Shown in pieces: positions 2,235-18,575 of a DNA stretch of 64,000 nucleotides. The position numbers were made by a program, and so were the translations under genes. Below the pieces are notes generated by a model. That model was not told the origin of the DNA and ran no database searches. It was given only the letters and a program-made list of their open reading frames with translations. The stretch is taken from assembly GCA_029884335.1 (NCBI GenBank), contig JAOUIA010000005.1, positions 23,372 to 87,371 on the forward strand. Direction: 5' to 3'. This DNA is from Betaproteobacteria bacterium. GTDB taxonomy: Bacteria; Pseudomonadota; Gammaproteobacteria; Burkholderiales; Casimicrobiaceae. Every line of letters starts with the position of its first letter. Position 1 is the stretch's first letter.

Positions 2235-4912
2235 CCGATCACCAGGAGCAGCGCGCCCACTCCGAGGAATGCAACCACGCGCGTGAGACCCGCCAGCGCG
2301 TCGAGGTCGACGAAGAACAGCTTCGCGACCACCAGCGCCAGCAGCGCCGCGCCGGCCAGCCACACCTCGCGCAAGCGCCGCCGCGTGGCGAGGACCATCA
2401 GCGCGAGCGCGCAGACCGTCCACGCCAGCGTCAGCGCGGCCTGCAGCGGTCGATGGGCGAGCAGCGCGTGCAGGTTCCATTCGAGTTCGCCGTAGTGGTA
2501 GGCCGTGCGCGCGACGCCACCGCTCAGCGCGACGAACGCCATCGCCGCGGCGAGCCACGCTCGCGCGCCCGCCGACATCTGCCCCCACGCCCCCGACCAG
2601 CGCCACAGCGCGGCGAGCGCGGCGAGGAGGGTCAGATCGAGCGGATTGGCGATCGGCACATACGGCCACGGATGCGGCTCGCCCGGCGACACGACGCTGA
2701 CCCCGGCGAACCACAGGATCAGCGCGAGCGCCACGAGCGCGCCGGCGCTGCGGCCATAGACCTCGGCGTGGGCAGACAGCGGCCACGCCCGCCGCGCCAC
2801 CGGCCACGCGACGCCGGCGAGGTAGGCGATCGCGGGCACCGCCGCGGCGCACGCGATCCACACGGTGCCGTCGGCCGTAACGCGGCCCGTCCACTCGCTT
2901 GCTTCCCAGGCAAGCCACGCGACGAAGGCCATTGCCGTGACCGCGTGGAGCCTGCGCAGCCAGCTCCACGCCCGTGTCCCCGCGTCGACAGCGGCCTCGA
3001 CGGCGCGCAATCCGGCAGCGTGCACGAGCCAGGCAAGCGGCCACGCGAGCCAGCCGTAGCCGCGCAGCGTGGTCCGGTATTGCTCGATGGCGAACGCGCC
3101 GACGACGGCGAGCGCGGGCAGCACCGCGACGAACAGCCACGCGACGCGCGGCCAGCGCAGCGCGCGCGCCAGCACCAGCCCCACCGCCGCTGCCGCGGCC
3201 ACCCACGCGAGCATCGCCGCGAGCTCGCGCGGGCCGCCGCCCATGCGGTCGATCTCGCGCACGCCGGCGGCGATCCACCACGCGGCGCCCCATGCGAACA
3301 GCCATGGCATGAGCTTGCGTTCGCGACCGTCCGGAACGTCGGCGTGGCGATCCGCCGCGAACACGATAGCGAGCGCGGCCAGGCCGATCAGCGCCGCGCC
3401 GACGAACGCCGCGTTGCCGAACAGGAGGCCTCGAGAGGCCGGCGCATCCCACAGGAACGCCAGTGCCGCCGCCACCTCCACGGCGATGGCGAACCAGCGC
3501 GCCGCACGCTGCCTCTGCGCGAGGCCCAGCCAGTACACGGCGGCGGCCTCGATCGCCCACCCCGCCGAAGTCCAGCGCGCGTCGAGCGCCAATGGGATCG
3601 CCAGCGTGGCGAAGACCACGGCGAGCGCTGCGAACGCCTTCGCCAGCCGCGCGAGGCCCGGCTCCGGCCGCGCGCGCAGCGCGAGCCAAAGCGCCGCGTA
3701 GACCGCGGCCAGCGCCACGGCGCTGTACGCCTCGCCCCAGCGGAAGTCCCGCACGATGCCGGCCTGCAGCGCGAAGCCGACGAGCGGCACGCCGAACACC
3801 AGCACGCCGTCGACGGGCGCACGCGCCTCGAGCGGGCTGCGCTTCGCGTACAGGATCGCGATGCCGACGTAGAAGGCGAAGAACAGCCCCAGGTACGGCT
3901 GCACGATCGCGTAGTGCCGCGGCCGGTAGAACGTCCAGCCCCACGCGAGGCCGAGCGCGAACGTGAACGCGAAGCCCAGCACGTTGAGCGCGCGCCACGA
4001 GCGCCGCCACGCGATGGCGAACACGGCGGCATTGAGGAGGGCGAACCACGCGAACAGCAGCGCCGGGGCGTCGGTGCCCGTGTCGATCAGCACGGGCGCG
4101 AGAAAGCCGCCGGCCAGCGCCAGCGCGGCGAGCGCCTGGGAGTCGTGGCGAAGCGCGAGCCCGATCGTCGCACCCGCGGCCGCGACGAGCAGCGCGAGCG
4201 AAGGCAGCGGCGGCAGCGCCGCGTAGAGGCGGAACGCGGCGAACACCGTGAGGTAGACCACGCCCATGCCCGCGCCTTGCAGCGAAAGCCCGTAGGCCGG
4301 GCGCGCGGCGGCGAGACGCATGCCCAACGCGGCGAGCGCGAGCCCGCCGGCGGCCGCCGCGCCGAGCTTCACTTCGATCGGCACGCCGGCGAGCTCGGCG
4401 AAGTAGCGCAGCAGGAACGCGACGCCGAAGAACAGGATGACGACGCCCACGCGGGTGAGCGCGTTGCCGCCGGCGAGCCAGTCGCGCACGCCGGCGAACA
4501 CGCCCGGACCGGCGGCGGGAGGGAACGCCACCGTCGCCGGTTGCGCCGCTTCAGCAGCCGCCCTCCCGAGGCCTGGCCGCGGCGGCGGAGCGTTCATCGG
4601 CCGGGCGGCGGCAGTCGGGGCGACCGGCGCCGCGACGCCCCCCTGCACGCTTGCGGATTCCGGCGCCGGCGGCGCGGCGTCGATGCCCAGCCGCGCCTCG
4701 ACGCGTGCTAGCCGCACCTCGATCGCCTCGAGCCGGCGCACCAGCAGTGCATCGGCGGCGCCCTCCGGCGTGGGCACGGCGCGCGCGCGATCGCGGCGAT
4801 CCTTGGCCCAGCCGAGAGCAAGACCGCAGAGGCCGCCCAGCAGCGAGACGACGAGTCCGCCCACGGCCAGACCGACCAGAACGCCCGCCAGCGTCCCCAT
4901 CACCTTCCACAT
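2183..4912 (-). CDS. DUF2339-family multi-pass membrane protein
   Basis: 909 aa, coiled coil (RRLEAIEVRLARVEARL) followed by about 25 hydrophobic segments. Confidence 0.8.
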   Translation of the reverse strand: MWKVMGTLAGVLVGLAVGGLVVSLLGGLCGLALGWAKDRRDRARAVPTPEGAADALLVRRLEAIEVRLARVEARLGIDAAPPAPESASVQGGVAAPVAPTAAARPMNAPPPRPGLGRAAAEAAQPATVAFPPAAGPGVFAGVRDWLAGGNALTRVGVVILFFGVAFLLRYFAELAGVPIEVKLGAAAAGGLALAALGMRLAAARPAYGLSLQGAGMGVVYLTVFAAFRLYAALPPLPSLALLVAAAGATIGLALRHDSQALAALALAGGFLAPVLIDTGTDAPALLFAWFALLNAAVFAIAWRRSWRALNVLGFAFTFALGLAWGWTFYRPRHYAIVQPYLGLFFAFYVGIAILYAKRSPLEARAPVDGVLVFGVPLVGFALQAGIVRDFRWGEAYSAVALAAVYAALWLALRARPEPGLARLAKAFAALAVVFATLAIPLALDARWTSAGWAIEAAAVYWLGLAQRQRAARWFAIAVEVAAALAFLWDAPASRGLLFGNAAFVGAALIGLAALAIVFAADRHADVPDGRERKLMPWLFAWGAAWWIAAGVREIDRMGGGPRELAAMLAWVAAAAAVGLVLARALRWPRVAWLFVAVLPALAVVGAFAIEQYRTTLRGYGWLAWPLAWLVHAAGLRAVEAAVDAGTRAWSWLRRLHAVTAMAFVAWLAWEASEWTGRVTADGTVWIACAAAVPAIAYLAGVAWPVARRAWPLSAHAEVYGRSAGALVALALILWFAGVSVVSPGEPHPWPYVPIANPLDLTLLAALAALWRWSGAWGQMSAGARAWLAAAMAFVALSGGVARTAYHYGELEWNLHALLAHRPLQAALTLAWTVCALALMVLATRRRLREVWLAGAALLALVVAKLFFVDLDALAGLTRVVAFLGVGALLLVIGYLAPLPPSRDDSAQDG

Positions 4913-4930: not shown

Positions 4931-6829
4931 CTACCGCCGCGGCCCGCGCAGCGCGAGGATCCTCTCGCGCAGCGCGTCCATGTCGAGCGTGCCCGTCGCG
5001 ATGGGCTCGCCGGCGGTGAGCGCGATGCGCGAGAACATGCCGCGCCAGCGGCGCATCGCCTTGCCGTTGTGCGAGCGCGAGAAGAAGCTGCCCCACAGCC
5101 CCGAGAGCGCCATCGGCACCACGGGCACCGGCGTCTCCCGCACGATGCGCTCGAGGCCCGGGCGAAACGGCTGCATCTCGCCATCCTCCGTGAGCCTCCC
5201 CTCGGGGAAGATGCCGACGATCTCGCCCTCGCGAAGCGCCCGCGCGACGTCGGCGAACGCGCGCTCCTTGCGCTGCGCGTCCTCCTTCGCCGGCGCGATG
5301 GGGATCGTGCGCATCTCGCGGAACAGGAAGCCGAGCACGGGAGTCGCGAAGATGCGGTGGTCCATCACGAAGCGGATCGGCCGGCGCACGCAGGCGGAGA
5401 TCACCACCGCGTCGACGTAGCTCACGTGGTTGCAGGCGATCACGCAGGCGCCCTCGTCGGGGATGCGCTCGAGGCCCCGCTTGTCGACGTTGTACATCGA
5501 GTGGACCAGCAGCCACGCGATGAACCGCATGAGGAACTCGGGGACCAGCCGGTAGATGAACAGCGCCACGGCGGCGTTCATCAGCGCGGTGACGAGGAAC
5601 AGGTCGACGATCGACAGCCCCGCCTTGAGCAGCCCGATCGCGAGGCCGGCCGAGGCGACCATGAACACCGCGTTCAGGATGTTGTTCGCGGCGATGATCC
5701 GCGAGCGGTGCGAGGGCTCCGAGCGCTCCTGGATCATCGCGTACAGCGGCACGATGTAGAAGCCGCCGAACACGCCGATCAGCACGAGGTCGGCCGCGAC
5801 GCGCCAGTGCGCCGGGTTGGCGAGGAACGCGGAGAGCCCCGCCAGCTCGGTCGCGCGCAGGCCCTTCGCGGCGAACCACAGGTCGACGGCGAACAGCGTG
5901 AGCCCGATCGAGCCGAACGGCACCAGCCCGATCTCCACCTTGCGCCCCGACAGCCGTTCGCACATGAGCGAGCCCGCGCCGATGCCGATCGAGAACAGCG
6001 CGAGCAGGGAGGTGACCACCGTCGCGTCGCCGCCGAGGAAGTCGCGGGCGAAGCCGGCGAACTGCGCGAGAAACACCGCCCCGTAGAACCAGAACCACGA
6101 GATGCCGAGCATCGACAGCCACACCACGCGGTTGCCGTAGGCGAGCCTCAGGTTGCGCGCGGTCTCGCTCACCGGGTTCCAGTTGAGGACGAGCCCGGGG
6201 TCGACCGCCGGCGTGTGCGGGATGCGCAGGCTCGCGGCCCAGCCGGCGATCGCCACTGCGATGCCCACCGCGCCGGCCCACACCGGCCCGTTCGGCTCGA
6301 GCGCCACGACGAGCCCGCCGACGATCGTGCCGAGCAGGATGGCGACGAACGTGCCCATCTCCACGAGGCCGTTGCCGCCGACCAGTTCCTCCGACCTGAG
6401 GTGCTGCGGGAGGATCGCGTACTTGACCGGGCCGAACAGCGTCGAGTGCACGCCCATCAGCCCGAGCGCGACGAACAGCGTGACGAGGTCGCGCCGCCAG
6501 AAGCCGATCAGCGCGACCGCCATGACCGCGATCTCGAAGAGCTTGATCAGCCGGATCAGCCGCCCCTTCTCCCACTTGTCGGCGATCTGTCCCGCGCTCG
6601 CCGACAGCAGCATGAACGGCGCGATGAAGATCGCCCCGGCGAGGTTGACCAGCGTGTTCGCGTCCATGCCGCCCGCGCCGGCGGCCGCGCCGAAGGCGAC
6701 GAAGATCACCAGCGCGTTCTTCAGCACGTTGTCGTTCGCCGCGCCCGCGAACTGGGTCCAGAAGAACGGCGCGAAGCGCCGCTCGCGCAGGAGGTCGAAC
6801 TGGTTGGGCTGGTGCAAGTCTTCCCTCAC
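4931..6829 (-). CDS. MFS transporter fused to a C-terminal 1-acyl-glycerophosphate acyltransferase domain
   Basis: N-terminal 12-TM MFS (FFWTQFAGAANDNVLKNAL...), C-terminal PlsC-type NHVSYVDAV (HX4D) and FPEGRLTEDG; GTG start at 6829. Confidence 0.85.
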   Translation of the reverse strand: MREDLHQPNQFDLLRERRFAPFFWTQFAGAANDNVLKNALVIFVAFGAAAGAGGMDANTLVNLAGAIFIAPFMLLSASAGQIADKWEKGRLIRLIKLFEIAVMAVALIGFWRRDLVTLFVALGLMGVHSTLFGPVKYAILPQHLRSEELVGGNGLVEMGTFVAILLGTIVGGLVVALEPNGPVWAGAVGIAVAIAGWAASLRIPHTPAVDPGLVLNWNPVSETARNLRLAYGNRVVWLSMLGISWFWFYGAVFLAQFAGFARDFLGGDATVVTSLLALFSIGIGAGSLMCERLSGRKVEIGLVPFGSIGLTLFAVDLWFAAKGLRATELAGLSAFLANPAHWRVAADLVLIGVFGGFYIVPLYAMIQERSEPSHRSRIIAANNILNAVFMVASAGLAIGLLKAGLSIVDLFLVTALMNAAVALFIYRLVPEFLMRFIAWLLVHSMYNVDKRGLERIPDEGACVIACNHVSYVDAVVISACVRRPIRFVMDHRIFATPVLGFLFREMRTIPIAPAKEDAQRKERAFADVARALREGEIVGIFPEGRLTEDGEMQPFRPGLERIVRETPVPVVPMALSGLWGSFFSRSHNGKAMRRWRGMFSRIALTAGEPIATGTLDMDALRERILALRGPRR

Positions 6830-14505: not shown

Positions 14506-14538
14506 GCAAAAAGAAAGCCCGCCGGGAGAGGGGCGGGC
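14506..14538 (-). terminator. Intrinsic terminator downstream of the sigma-54-driven small ORF
   Basis: Minus strand: GCCCGCC-loop-GGCGGGC followed by TTTCTTTTT. Confidence 0.75.
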
Positions 14539-14619
14539 AAGGGGGATAGAGTGCGGCGCGCGGGGAGGAGGGCCGCGCGCCGCGAAGACCCGGCAAGGCG
14601 CCGGATCAGGGGGAACGGT

Positions 14620-14778
14620 TCAGACGACGGTGCGGGCGGCGGTCACACGCTCGGCCAGTTCCTCGAGCGCCTCGCGCTGCCGGCGCGCCTCGTCCTCGCG
14701 GCGATCGGCCTGCGCTCGCTCTTCCGCTTCCCTCGTCGGGAGCCAGTAGCGGGAGAACTCGGGAGCGTAGGAATCCAT
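14620..14778 (-). CDS. 52-aa charged small protein, candidate sigma-54/GlrR-controlled gene
   Basis: MDSYAPEFSRYWLPTREAEERAQADRREDEARRQREALEELAERVTAARTVV; AAGAGGCG SD upstream; sigma-54 promoter about 55 nt upstream. Confidence 0.55.
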   Translation of the reverse strand: MDSYAPEFSRYWLPTREAEERAQADRREDEARRQREALEELAERVTAARTVV

Positions 14779-14832
14779 GATCGCCTCTTGCTTCGGACGA
14801 CGCGCCGTCGTCATCGGACACGCCAAGCCTGA

Positions 14833-14848
14833 TGCAATGGTCGTGCCA
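14833..14848 (-). promoter_or_regulatory. Sigma-54 (-24/-12) promoter
   Basis: Minus strand reads TGGCACG-ACCA-TTGCA, matching the TGGCACG-N4-TTGCW consensus. Confidence 0.85.
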
Positions 14849-14958
14849 ACGCTGCATCCCGGCCCGGCCAGCCACGATGAAATGACAACTGCATAGGGAG
14901 AAAGTGCCCCGCGACGCGATGAACGCGGGAAGCGGGAGGCCGCCAGGCGAAGCCGATT

Positions 14959-14976
14959 TGTCGCAAGAACCCGACA
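14959..14976. promoter_or_regulatory. GlrR/QseF-type enhancer box A, TGTC-N10-GACA
   Basis: TGTCGCAAGAACCCGACA. Confidence 0.75.
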
Positions 14977-15023
14977 GCACGGCCAGCAATCTGCCTACAT
15001 GATTGAACCAACAGGACTTTTTC

Positions 15024-15041
15024 TGTCGCTCGAATGCGACA
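15024..15041. promoter_or_regulatory. GlrR/QseF-type enhancer box B, TGTC-N10-GACA
   Basis: TGTCGCTCGAATGCGACA. Confidence 0.75.
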
Positions 15042-15081: not shown

Positions 15082-16434
15082 TCAGCCCTTGCCTTCCTTG
15101 AACATCGCCGGCTCGAGCTTGTGGCGCTGCAGCAGCTTGTAGAACTCGGTCCGGTTGCGCTTGGCCATCAGCGCCGCCTGCGTCACGTTGCCGCCGGTGA
15201 GCTTGAGCAGGCGGACGAGGTAGTCGCGCTCGAAGGACTTGCGCGCTTCCTCGAAGGGCACCAGCTCGGAGGCGTCCTCCCGCAGCGCGCTCTGGACCAC
15301 CGACCCGGGAATCACGGCCGTCGTGGTCAGCGCCGTCGCCTGTTCCAGCACGTTGAGCAACTGGCGCACGTTGCCCGGCCACGGCGCGGCGATCAGCAGC
15401 GCCATCGCGTCCGGCGCGAGCGTGGGCAACGGCTTGCGGTAGCGCTCGGCGAGCTTGCGCAGGAAATGTGTCGCCAGCACCGGGATGTCCTCGCGGCGCT
15501 CGGCGAGCGGCGGCAGGCGCAGCGACACGACGTTGAGGCGGTAGTAGAGGTCCTCGCGGAAGAGCCCCGCCGCCCTCTGCGCCTCGAGGTCGCGGTGCGT
15601 CGCGGAAATCACTCGCACGTCGACCGGGATCGACTGCGTCGAGCCGACCGGGCGCACCTCGCCCTCCTGCAGCACGCGCAGCAGCTTCACCTGCAGCGGC
15701 AGCGGCATGTCGCCGATCTCGTCGAGGAACAGCGTCCCCGTGTCGGCCGTCTGGAACAGCCCCTTGTGCGCCTGCACCGCGCCTGTGAACGCGCCGCGCG
15801 CATGGCCGAACAGCTCCGACTCGAGCAGTTCCGCCGGGATCGCCCCGCAGTTGACGGCGACGAACGGCCGCTCGGCGCGCGGGCTCGCCTTGTGGATCGC
15901 GCGCGCCAGGAGCTCCTTGCCGGTGCCCGACTCGCCGTAGATCAGCACGCTGGCGTCGGAGTCCGCCACCAGCCGCGCCTGGCGCAGGAGGTCCTCCATC
16001 TTCGGGCTGCGCGTGACGAATCCCGCGCGCCACTCGGAGGAGGAATTCGCGACCTCGCCGTCGTCGCCGGAGAGCTTGAGCGCCGCGGCGACCTTCTGCA
16101 GCAGCTCCTGGCTGTCGAACGGCTTCGTGAGGAACCCGAAGACGCCGCGCTGCGTCGCCGAGACCGCGTCGGGAATGGTGCCGTGCGCCGTCAGGATGAT
16201 GACCGGCAGCGTCGGGTGCTGGCGGTGGATCGCCTCGAACAGCTGCATGCCGTCGATGCCCGGCATGCGCAGGTCGGTGATGACCGCGGCGGGCCGCGTG
16301 ACCGCCAGCGCCGCCAGCGCCAGCTCGCCGCTCTCCGCCGTGCGCACGCGGTAGCCGGCCGAGGTGAGCCGCAGGCCGATCAGCCGCAGCAGGTCGGGGT
16401 CGTCGTCGACGAGCAGGATGTCGCTGGTGTTCAT
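15082..16434 (-). CDS. glrR: Sigma-54-dependent response regulator (GlrR/QseF type)
   Basis: MNTSDILLVDDDPDLLRLIGLRL receiver; GESGTGKELLARAIH, GAFTGA, GTLFLDEIGD AAA+; Fis-type HTH C-terminus. Confidence 0.9.
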   Translation of the reverse strand: MNTSDILLVDDDPDLLRLIGLRLTSAGYRVRTAESGELALAALAVTRPAAVITDLRMPGIDGMQLFEAIHRQHPTLPVIILTAHGTIPDAVSATQRGVFGFLTKPFDSQELLQKVAAALKLSGDDGEVANSSSEWRAGFVTRSPKMEDLLRQARLVADSDASVLIYGESGTGKELLARAIHKASPRAERPFVAVNCGAIPAELLESELFGHARGAFTGAVQAHKGLFQTADTGTLFLDEIGDMPLPLQVKLLRVLQEGEVRPVGSTQSIPVDVRVISATHRDLEAQRAAGLFREDLYYRLNVVSLRLPPLAERREDIPVLATHFLRKLAERYRKPLPTLAPDAMALLIAAPWPGNVRQLLNVLEQATALTTTAVIPGSVVQSALREDASELVPFEEARKSFERDYLVRLLKLTGGNVTQAALMAKRNRTEFYKLLQRHKLEPAMFKEGKG

Positions 16435-16521: not shown

Positions 16522-17085
16522 TCAGTTCCCGCCCGAGCCCGAGCCCCCGCCGCCGCCGCTGCGCAGCCGGTCGCGCAGGAGACTGCGCTCCATCGCGCGC
16601 AGCGCCTCGAGCTTCTGCAGCGCGGCCTCGCTGCGCGCCTGCTCCTCGCGCACCACGCGCACGCGCTCGGCGACCTGTGTTGCGAGCGCCGTGGCGAGCT
16701 GCCGCAGCGCCGCCGGGCCCGGATTGGCCTTGACCACGGCGTCGAGCAGCTGCAGCGCGCGCTGGTCGTCCGTCGTGCCCTGGCGCGACAGCGTGTGCAG
16801 CACGGCCACTCGCACGCGCGTGAAGTCGCTGCGCGTGCGGTTGAGCGCCTGCGTCTGCGCGGCGAGCTCGCGCCGCGCCTCCTCGCCCGCGAGCGTCGAA
16901 TAGCGCTGCAGGTCGCCGAGCAGCGCTGCGAACTCGCGCTCCTCGGGAACCGGCGGCGGCGCGACGGGCTGCTCCGGAGCCGCCGCGGGCGCCGGCTCGG
17001 CTGTCGCCGGCGACTGCGCGCGCAAGCTGCCCGCCGCCGCGCAGGCGACGAGCACGCCGAGCGCGAGCGTGCGGAGCGCGGTCAC
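16522..17085 (-). CDS. QseG-like periplasmic/lipoprotein component of the Glr operon
   Basis: Located between glrK and glrR; VTALRTLALGVLVACAAAGSLRAQ signal; alpha-helical remainder. Confidence 0.6.
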   Translation of the reverse strand: MTALRTLALGVLVACAAAGSLRAQSPATAEPAPAAAPEQPVAPPPVPEEREFAALLGDLQRYSTLAGEEARRELAAQTQALNRTRSDFTRVRVAVLHTLSRQGTTDDQRALQLLDAVVKANPGPAALRQLATALATQVAERVRVVREEQARSEAALQKLEALRAMERSLLRDRLRSGGGGGSGSGGN

Positions 17086-18575
17086 GTCGCGTCCCCGGGG
17101 CTCGGCGCCGTCCGCAACTCGCCGGTGACGGTGGTAAGCGCGTCGAGCGGCGCGCCCTCGGGCAGCGACAGCCGGAAGCGCGCGCCGCGCTTGCCGTCGC
17201 GGCGATCGTGCACGGCGATCTCGCCGCCGTGCGCGATCGCGTACTCGCGCGCGATGGCGAGCCCGAGGCCGGAGCCTTTCACCCGGCCCCCGGTCGGCGC
17301 CCGGCCCTGGAAGAACGAGTCGAAGATGCGCTCGCGCTCGTCGGCGTCCACCCCCGGGCCGTCGTCGGTCACCTCGACGTGCGCCTGCCCGCCCTCCTGC
17401 CAGGTGCGGATCTCGATGCGCCCGGCGCGCTTCGCGTACTTGATCGCGTTGGAGACCAGGTTGTCGACGACCGTGCGCAGGCGGTCCGCCTCGCCGACGA
17501 CGAGCGCCGGCTGCAGGCGCAGGTCCACGGTGAGGCCACGCGCCAGTGCCGCCAGCTTGTGCTCGCGGACCACGCGCCGCGCGACGTCGCCCAGCATCAC
17601 CGGTCCCAGCGTGGCCGACTCGAACGAACGCGTCTGGTGGTACTTGAGCAGGTCCTCGATCAGCTTCTGCAGGCTGATGGTGTTCTCGCGCACGATGCGC
17701 ACGATGTCGCGCTGTTCCTTCGTGAGCTTGCCGCCGACCTCGTCGCGCAGCAGCTCCGCGCCCTCGCGCACGGCGGTGAGCGGCGTCTTGAGCTCGTGCG
17801 AGACGTGGCGCAGGAACCGCGTCTGCTGCTGCTCGAGCTCGGCGAGGCGCGCGCGCAGCCACTCGAGCCGCTGGCCGAGGTAGCGCAGGTCCTGCGGGCC
17901 GTTGACCTCGATCGCGCGCGAGAAGTCTGCGCTGCCCATCTGCCGGATCGCGCCCTCGAGCTGGCGGATCGGCCGCGCGATCAGCACGGCGAACAGGATC
18001 GCCAGCGCGAGCGCGATGCCGCCGGTCGCCACCGCCAGCCAGCGCCACTTGTCGCGGCCCTCGGCGGCAGTCTGCTGCAGCCGCTCGATCGCCGTCTGCG
18101 TGAGCGCGTTGGACGCCGCGAGCATCGTCTGCGCCTCGTCGACCAGCTGGCCGTAGCCCTCCGCGAGCTCCACGGATCCGCCGCTCGTCTTCGGCCCCGA
18201 CGTGAGCCGCGCGTGCAGGTCCGACTCGCGCCCGCCGACCCTCTGCAGCGCCTCGTGGTAGCCGCGCTCGAGCGGGAGCTGCGCGAGCTGGCGCACCGTG
18301 GCGCGGAAGTCCTGGCGCAGGCGGTTGTAGTCGTCGACGAGCGCGTGGTCCTCGAGGATCAGGTACTGGCGCACGACGCGCTCGAGCGTCGTGGTCTGCT
18401 CGAACAGCTGGCGCGACGCGCGCGCGGCCTGCGAGGTCTGCAGCACCTCGTCGCGGCTCTGCGAGACCAGGCGGTCGAACGACAGCGTCAGCTCGGCGAG
18501 CGCGTAGAGCAGCGGCAGGCTCACGAGCAGGAAGCCGAGCAGGATGAACTTGAGGAAGGAGCGGGGGTAGTACAC
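17082..18575 (-). CDS. glrK: Sensor histidine kinase (GlrK/QseE type)
   Basis: TM, HAMP (ARPIRQLEGAIRQMGSADFS), H-box FLRHVSHELKTPLTAVREGAELL, N and G boxes. Confidence 0.88.
   Translation of the reverse strand: MYYPRSFLKFILLGFLLVSLPLLYALAELTLSFDRLVSQSRDEVLQTSQAARASRQLFEQTTTLERVVRQYLILEDHALVDDYNRLRQDFRATVRQLAQLPLERGYHEALQRVGGRESDLHARLTSGPKTSGGSVELAEGYGQLVDEAQTMLAASNALTQTAIERLQQTAAEGRDKWRWLAVATGGIALALAILFAVLIARPIRQLEGAIRQMGSADFSRAIEVNGPQDLRYLGQRLEWLRARLAELEQQQTRFLRHVSHELKTPLTAVREGAELLRDEVGGKLTKEQRDIVRIVRENTISLQKLIEDLLKYHQTRSFESATLGPVMLGDVARRVVREHKLAALARGLTVDLRLQPALVVGEADRLRTVVDNLVSNAIKYAKRAGRIEIRTWQEGGQAHVEVTDDGPGVDADERERIFDSFFQGRAPTGGRVKGSGLGLAIAREYAIAHGGEIAVHDRRDGKRGARFRLSLPEGAPLDALTTVTGELRTAPSPGDAT

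Follow-up and report, generated by a model that had tools for sequence, protein, structure and literature searches.

What does the GlrK/GlrR two-component system control in bacteria outside the enterobacteria? The question is raised by a 64,000-nucleotide stretch of a contig from a Betaproteobacteria bacterium of the family Casimicrobiaceae (the window), in which the genes of such a system are followed on the minus strand by a short predicted transcription unit. In enterobacteria, the GlrR/QseF target glmY has paired upstream boxes and a sigma-54 promoter, and encodes a short RNA beside the glrK-glrR operon (PMC6075780). A sequence-only reading of the window had described two GlrR boxes, a sigma-54 promoter, a 52-residue open reading frame led by a Shine-Dalgarno sequence, and a terminator, and had proposed a small protein or an sRNA, or both, as the product. 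All of these elements are present where that reading placed them, and the locus is organized as follows:

17082-18575, minus strand: glrK, histidine kinase (Pfam HisKA, HATPase_c, and HAMP)
16522-17085, minus strand: 187-aa ORF between glrK and glrR, QseG-like by position only
15082-16434, minus strand: glrR, response regulator and sigma-54 activator (Pfam Response_reg and Sigma54_activat)
15024-15041, minus strand: putative distal GlrR box TGTCGCATTCGAGCGACA, exact TGTC-N10-GACA
14996-15008, minus strand: location of the IHF-like motif between the two boxes, with a degenerate copy in the window (6/9)
14959-14976, minus strand: putative proximal GlrR box TGTCGGGTTCTTGCGACA, exact TGTC-N10-GACA
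14848-14833, minus strand: predicted sigma-54 promoter TGGCACGACCATTGCA, predicted transcription start at about 14821
14789-14782, minus strand: Shine-Dalgarno sequence AAGAGGCG, from the sequence
14620-14778, minus strand: ORF of the 52-aa small protein, MDSYAPEFSRYW...EALEELAERVTAARTVV plus stop (ATG at 14778, stop at 14620-14622)
14587-14607, minus strand: hairpin 1 of the 3' UTR, from the predicted fold
14553-14583, minus strand: hairpin 2 of the 3' UTR, from the predicted fold, with an 11-bp stem and CCUCCUCC in the loop
14509-14550, minus strand: conserved 3' RNA element, with unpaired AUCCCCCUU, GCCCGC/GCGGGC stem, C/U-rich loop, and T tract (model R1, 52.3 bits)
14507-14538, minus strand: intrinsic terminator forming the 3' half of the RNA element, with the hairpin at 14538-14517 and the T tract reaching 14507, from sequence and fold

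The transcript is predicted to be about 315 nt long from promoter to terminator. The upstream genes had been named glrK-qseG-glrR; the Pfam domains bear out glrK and glrR, whereas the 187-aa ORF has no Pfam match at E<0.01 and owes the name qseG to its position. Elsewhere in the window, the minus strand at 6035-6156 matches the Burkholderia sRNA family Bcj11 (RF02835, 66 bits, cut-off 49).

The sequence-only reading depended on the promoter and boxes being shared by relatives, and they are. The centers of the two boxes are 65 bp apart in the window, which contains three matches to TGTC-N10-GACA against 0.74 expected. The complete 3.66-Mb genome contains 24 such sites and a single pair with the 65-bp spacing. 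Of 61 relatives, 32 have a pair exactly 65 bp apart, in each case at a single location, and the reversed-pattern control yields none. Of the 28 family loci in which both boxes were recognized with a spacing of 64–66 bp allowed, only locus L135, with 66 bp, departs from the 65-bp spacing; in genome G036 the boxes are 64 bp apart. The distance from the proximal box to the promoter varies from 112 to 139 bp across relatives. The conservation of one pair per genome, together with the reversed-pattern controls, rules out chance palindromes. The boxes had been equated with the motif reported for enterobacterial GlrR; the published E. coli QseF/GlrR site is TGT-N12-ACA (PMC6075780), of which TGTC-N10-GACA represents a stricter form.

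The pattern TGGCAYGN4TTGCW occurs once in the 3.66-Mb genome, at the TGGCACGACCATTGCA site, and its reversed control does not occur. The site carries the −24/−12 GG-N10-GC signature of GlrR/QseF-dependent sigma-54 promoters, which is conserved in relatives, and the at least two upstream TGT-N12-ACA sites expected of such promoters are represented by the two exact conserved boxes. The genome encodes rpoN and four strong sigma-54 activators, GlrR among them. The closest named relatives of this GlrR are mostly betaproteobacterial, with 63–67% identity. As a positive control, the same GlrR query retrieves enterobacterial loci in which a box pair precedes Rfam GlmY (L062, L063, and L069). Comparative genomics thus supports the architecture expected for GlrR/sigma-54 control of a short transcript in the boxes, their spacing, the promoter, its position after glrR, and the presence of rpoN, and the predicted promoter logic of the module is well supported.

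An IHF-like motif (WATCAANNNNTTR) is located between the boxes, at the same offset of 15 nt past the distal box in most relatives. It matches at least eight of nine positions in 22 of 28 loci, and in a few loci the best match is elsewhere between the boxes. The mean score of 7.8/9 compares with 6.3 in shuffled sequences and is above all 300 shuffled sets, the maximum of which is 6.7. The window's own copy is degenerate, with 6/9 compared with 8–9/9 in most relatives. Because IHF is documented to assist QseF/GlrR in E. coli (PMC6075780), a DNA bend between the two GlrR sites is a natural explanation of the rigid box spacing, for which the IHF-like site would account.

The 52-aa ORF is conserved as a protein and is under purifying selection. 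A search of 60 relatives gave homologs in 22, all inside the family; glrR is located upstream in 21 of the 22 loci, and these GlrR orthologs are 82–94% identical, with one at 77%. Among 21 family members, the in-frame pN/pS is 0.30 for the N-terminal part and 0.36 for the C-terminal part, compared with 1.6 and 2.6 in the shifted frames, and close pairs give values of 0.29–0.33. The ORF thus shows the protein-level selection (pN/pS 0.30–0.36) that is expected of the coding part of a dual-function sRNA. The start, stop, and length are conserved, as are an N-terminal motif, M[DE]x[FY][AS]PE[FL]xxxW, and a C-terminal motif, ALEELAERVxAARS[VI]V, and the middle of the protein is freely variable. AlphaFold, run on the single sequence, predicts one helix comprising residues 15–50 and a disordered N-terminus. 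Neither a signal peptide nor a transmembrane segment is seen in the protein sequence, and the product has no family match in Pfam or NCBIfam; the 22 members of the small-protein family do not match DUF1127 in Pfam at E up to 1. The C-terminal tail has the form [ST]-x-hydrophobic in 19 of the 22 proteins and resembles a PDZ ligand. There is no obvious cytosolic PDZ partner, and reading the tail as such a ligand is speculation based on its sequence.

Conservation within the transcript is highest in its final ~44 nt, which consist of GAAUCCCCCUU, GCCCGC, a loop containing (C/U)UCCUCCC, GCGGGC, and UUUUUUUU (U8), and are nearly identical across the family. The mean pairwise identity of the element is 0.64 (0.28 when shuffled), compared with 0.26 (0.21 when shuffled) for the remaining 3' UTR. 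Per-column conservation reaches 90% in the unpaired flank and 99% in the stem. All 23 sequences preserve every stem pair, with one double change among them, and covariation gives thin support, since the stem shows hardly any variation. The 3' UTR of the window folds far better than its shuffles (z = −7.3). The terminator loop is CCUCUCC in the window and UCCUCC in most relatives. In genus g2, the promoter and ORF are kept, the CCUCC terminator loop is lost, and a CCUCCCCC hairpin is located upstream instead. Ordinary constraint on the terminator must explain some of the 3' conservation, and the element is also conserved beyond the needs of coding and termination, as expected of the RNA part of a dual-function sRNA.

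At E<=0.01, a covariance model detects the element, almost always as a single copy, in 30 of the 37 family genomes, with a best E-value of 5e-13; the model was built from family sequences, which therefore match by construction, and the independent matches are those in genomes G032 and G036 of genus g6 and in genomes of another family, f48. Every family copy that was read forms the end of a GlrR-box/sigma-54 transcript. A known RNA family was ruled out for the transcript, since the module region has no gathering-level match in Rfam. Beyond the family, the model has weaker matches (E 1e-5 to 1e-4), most of them not at glrR. Five such candidates (L176, L178, L179, L181, and L184) were rejected as copies of the element and represent other C-rich terminators. 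Several short terminator RNAs of the CAUCCCCCUUCACCCGCC type are present in family f34 (G069:C6:4136-4175 and 4255-4294, L178, and L179); two of them are 119 bp apart, and one is preceded by a sigma-70-like TATAAT. From their sequences, the f34 RNAs are possibly an independent group of C-rich sRNAs.

The promoter and the 3' element recur around different coding sequences. Three small genomes of genus g6 (G026, G032, and G036) retain the box pair, the promoter, and the 3' element beside glrR; no homologous ORF was found between promoter and element in them, and the transcript is about 100–220 nt long. In genome G126, from family f48, a GlrR box and a sigma-54 promoter are positioned right after glrR and before genes for CsbD-like and glycine-zipper proteins, and the operon terminates with AACCCCCAAGUUGGCCCGCUAUUUUCUCCUCCGGCGGGCUUUUUUUU, an element of the same kind. 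G083, from the genus of G126, shares this operon and its ending behind a GlrR box, with glrR absent from the ~4 kb fetched upstream. Among the model matches outside the family, only G126 and G083 fit this arrangement. Two loci of genus g2 (L126 and L135) have the box pair, promoter, and small ORF, with glrR absent from ~1 kb upstream, which suggests that the module can also be located apart from glrR. As the relatives are draft genomes, absences in individual ones are weak evidence.

Downstream of glrR in additional Betaproteobacteria, the promoter precedes the gene of an exported BON-domain protein, without a clear 3' element. These loci share with the module the position after glrR, the sigma-54 promoter, and the box pair, which is spaced by 66 bp in Chitinimonas, Dechloromonas, and Duganella and by 77 bp in Janthinobacterium, and in Herbaspirillum is represented only by degenerate sites. 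They differ in the exported BON-domain product and in a 3' element that is absent or marginal. One Dechloromonas locus (L048) contains two GlrR box pairs with a spacing of 65–66 bp, at about 2799-2881 and 6362-6445, one upstream of glrK and the other after glrR before the BON-domain gene. Paired or single GlrR-like boxes follow glrR-like genes, with other genes downstream, in metagenome-assembled genomes of Desulfobulbaceae, Desulfuromonadales, and Nitrospirota (L053, L054, L057, and L067). In other families of the order (L131-L133), 65-bp box pairs are located upstream of ORFs for a WecG/TagA-like glycosyltransferase and an 88-aa exported protein, and possibly of one resembling bactofilin, all three named by eye.

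Of the alternatives left by the sequence-only reading, small protein, sRNA, or both, the evidence points to both, because the ORF is conserved as a protein and the 3' end is kept where the ORF is absent. We consider it probable, from sequence conservation, that the locus produces a bifunctional transcript controlled by GlrR, RpoN, and IHF, which encodes the small protein and carries a C-rich, anti-Shine-Dalgarno-like 3' sRNA module. The course of events that we infer would begin with phosphorylated GlrR binding to the two boxes and IHF bending the intervening DNA, and together they would activate the RNA polymerase-sigma54 at 14833-14848. Translation of the 5' part of the transcript would yield a cytosolic 52-aa protein with a short conserved N-terminal motif and one helix, probably a protein–protein adaptor. 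The 3' part, either within the full-length transcript or after processing, would act as an sRNA. The unpaired CCCCCUU stretch and the C/U-rich loops of the hairpins complement purine-rich Shine-Dalgarno sequences, a feature shared with other C-rich sRNAs. Through this stretch and these loops, the RNA may pair with such regions in target mRNAs, probably together with Hfq, which is encoded in the genome, and the translation of the targets would be lowered while the GlrK/GlrR envelope signal is on.

The same transcript could be a plain mRNA, in which GlrR and sigma-54 drive the synthesis of the small protein only, and the 3' end is a strong terminator kept by descent and devoid of activity in trans. 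Such an mRNA would have the intrinsic terminator that lies inside the element and the selected ORF that precedes it. However, termination requires neither the flank nor the UCCU core of the loop, both of which are about 90% or more conserved next to a scrambled 3' UTR, and the element persists without the ORF in genus g6 and behind other ORFs in family f48. We therefore regard the plain mRNA as unlikely, with roughly one chance in four left to it. At the other extreme, the promoter and 3' element without an ORF in genus g6 are what a transcript acting purely as RNA, with an incidental ORF, would look like. Selection on the protein sequence at both ends of the ORF (pN/pS ~0.3), with its start, stop, and length preserved, makes this reading very improbable.

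The conservation of the C-rich flank and loop could instead reflect a role in cis, as a composite terminator, a site for an RNA-binding protein, or a partner for the transcript's own Shine-Dalgarno sequence. C-rich single strands beside hairpins can bind proteins, and the CCUCU of the window's loop could, judging by complementarity, pair with the AGAGG of its own Shine-Dalgarno sequence. Several relatives, however, have weak Shine-Dalgarno sequences (for example GUAAAGAACACCGAC before the AUG), so that self-pairing is unlikely to be a shared function, and a role in cis would not obviously retain the element after loss of the ORF. This explanation appears improbable, and the bifunctional transcript remains our preferred reading.

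The module resembles enterobacterial glmY in the regulator family, the paired boxes, the sigma-54 promoter, and a short RNA adjoining glrK-glrR. In contrast to glmY, which is located before glrK, it follows glrR; it contains a conserved ORF, and its 3' module is C-rich and anti-Shine-Dalgarno-like, whereas GlmY is a RapZ-binding decoy RNA. Neither the window nor its relatives have a gathering-level match to GlmY (RF00128), which the enterobacterial loci do match. Among other C-rich RNAs, alphaproteobacterial ar14 (RF02344) and the Betaproteobacteria toxic small RNA (RF02278, NcS27 family) similarly have C-rich loops or a C/U-rich 5' flank before a GC-rich terminator. The element is not a member of either family, scoring 13.4 of the 58.8 bits required for RF02344 and 13.5 of the 50 for RF02278, and these RNAs are not known to be linked with an ORF or a GlrR promoter. 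In Rhodobacter, the DUF1127 small protein CcaF1 and the downstream sRNAs CcsR1-4 are encoded on one stress-controlled transcript that is processed by RNase E (PMC10253847). The order of a small protein upstream and an RNA module downstream on one transcript is the same here. The differences are the small protein without a DUF1127 match, the control by GlrR/sigma-54 rather than RpoHI/HII, and the four sRNA copies in Rhodobacter. The CcsR RNAs carry CCUCCUCCC loops.

The best reading is that the module works like GlrR-glmY but is not GlmY, and it is best called a GlrR-controlled small-protein/sRNA transcript. More tentatively, at slightly less than even confidence, the conserved GlrR/sigma-54 output in part of the Betaproteobacteria may be a C-rich 3' UTR sRNA attached to the promoter, with the protein cargo exchanged (the 52-aa protein, the CsbD and glycine-zipper pair, or none), and thus a functional counterpart of GlmY without detectable homology.

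In the literature that we found, targets of GlrK/GlrR are described for enterobacteria only. In this genome, GlrR seems to have a single sigma-54 target, dedicated and near-perfect, which encodes a small protein without a Pfam or NCBIfam match and ends in an RNA module absent from Rfam. If both products are active, the locus would represent a compact two-component system with a dual-function RNA as its output, and an example of evolution exchanging the protein half of such a transcript while retaining the promoter and the RNA. The role of GlrR outside enterobacteria becomes directly testable.
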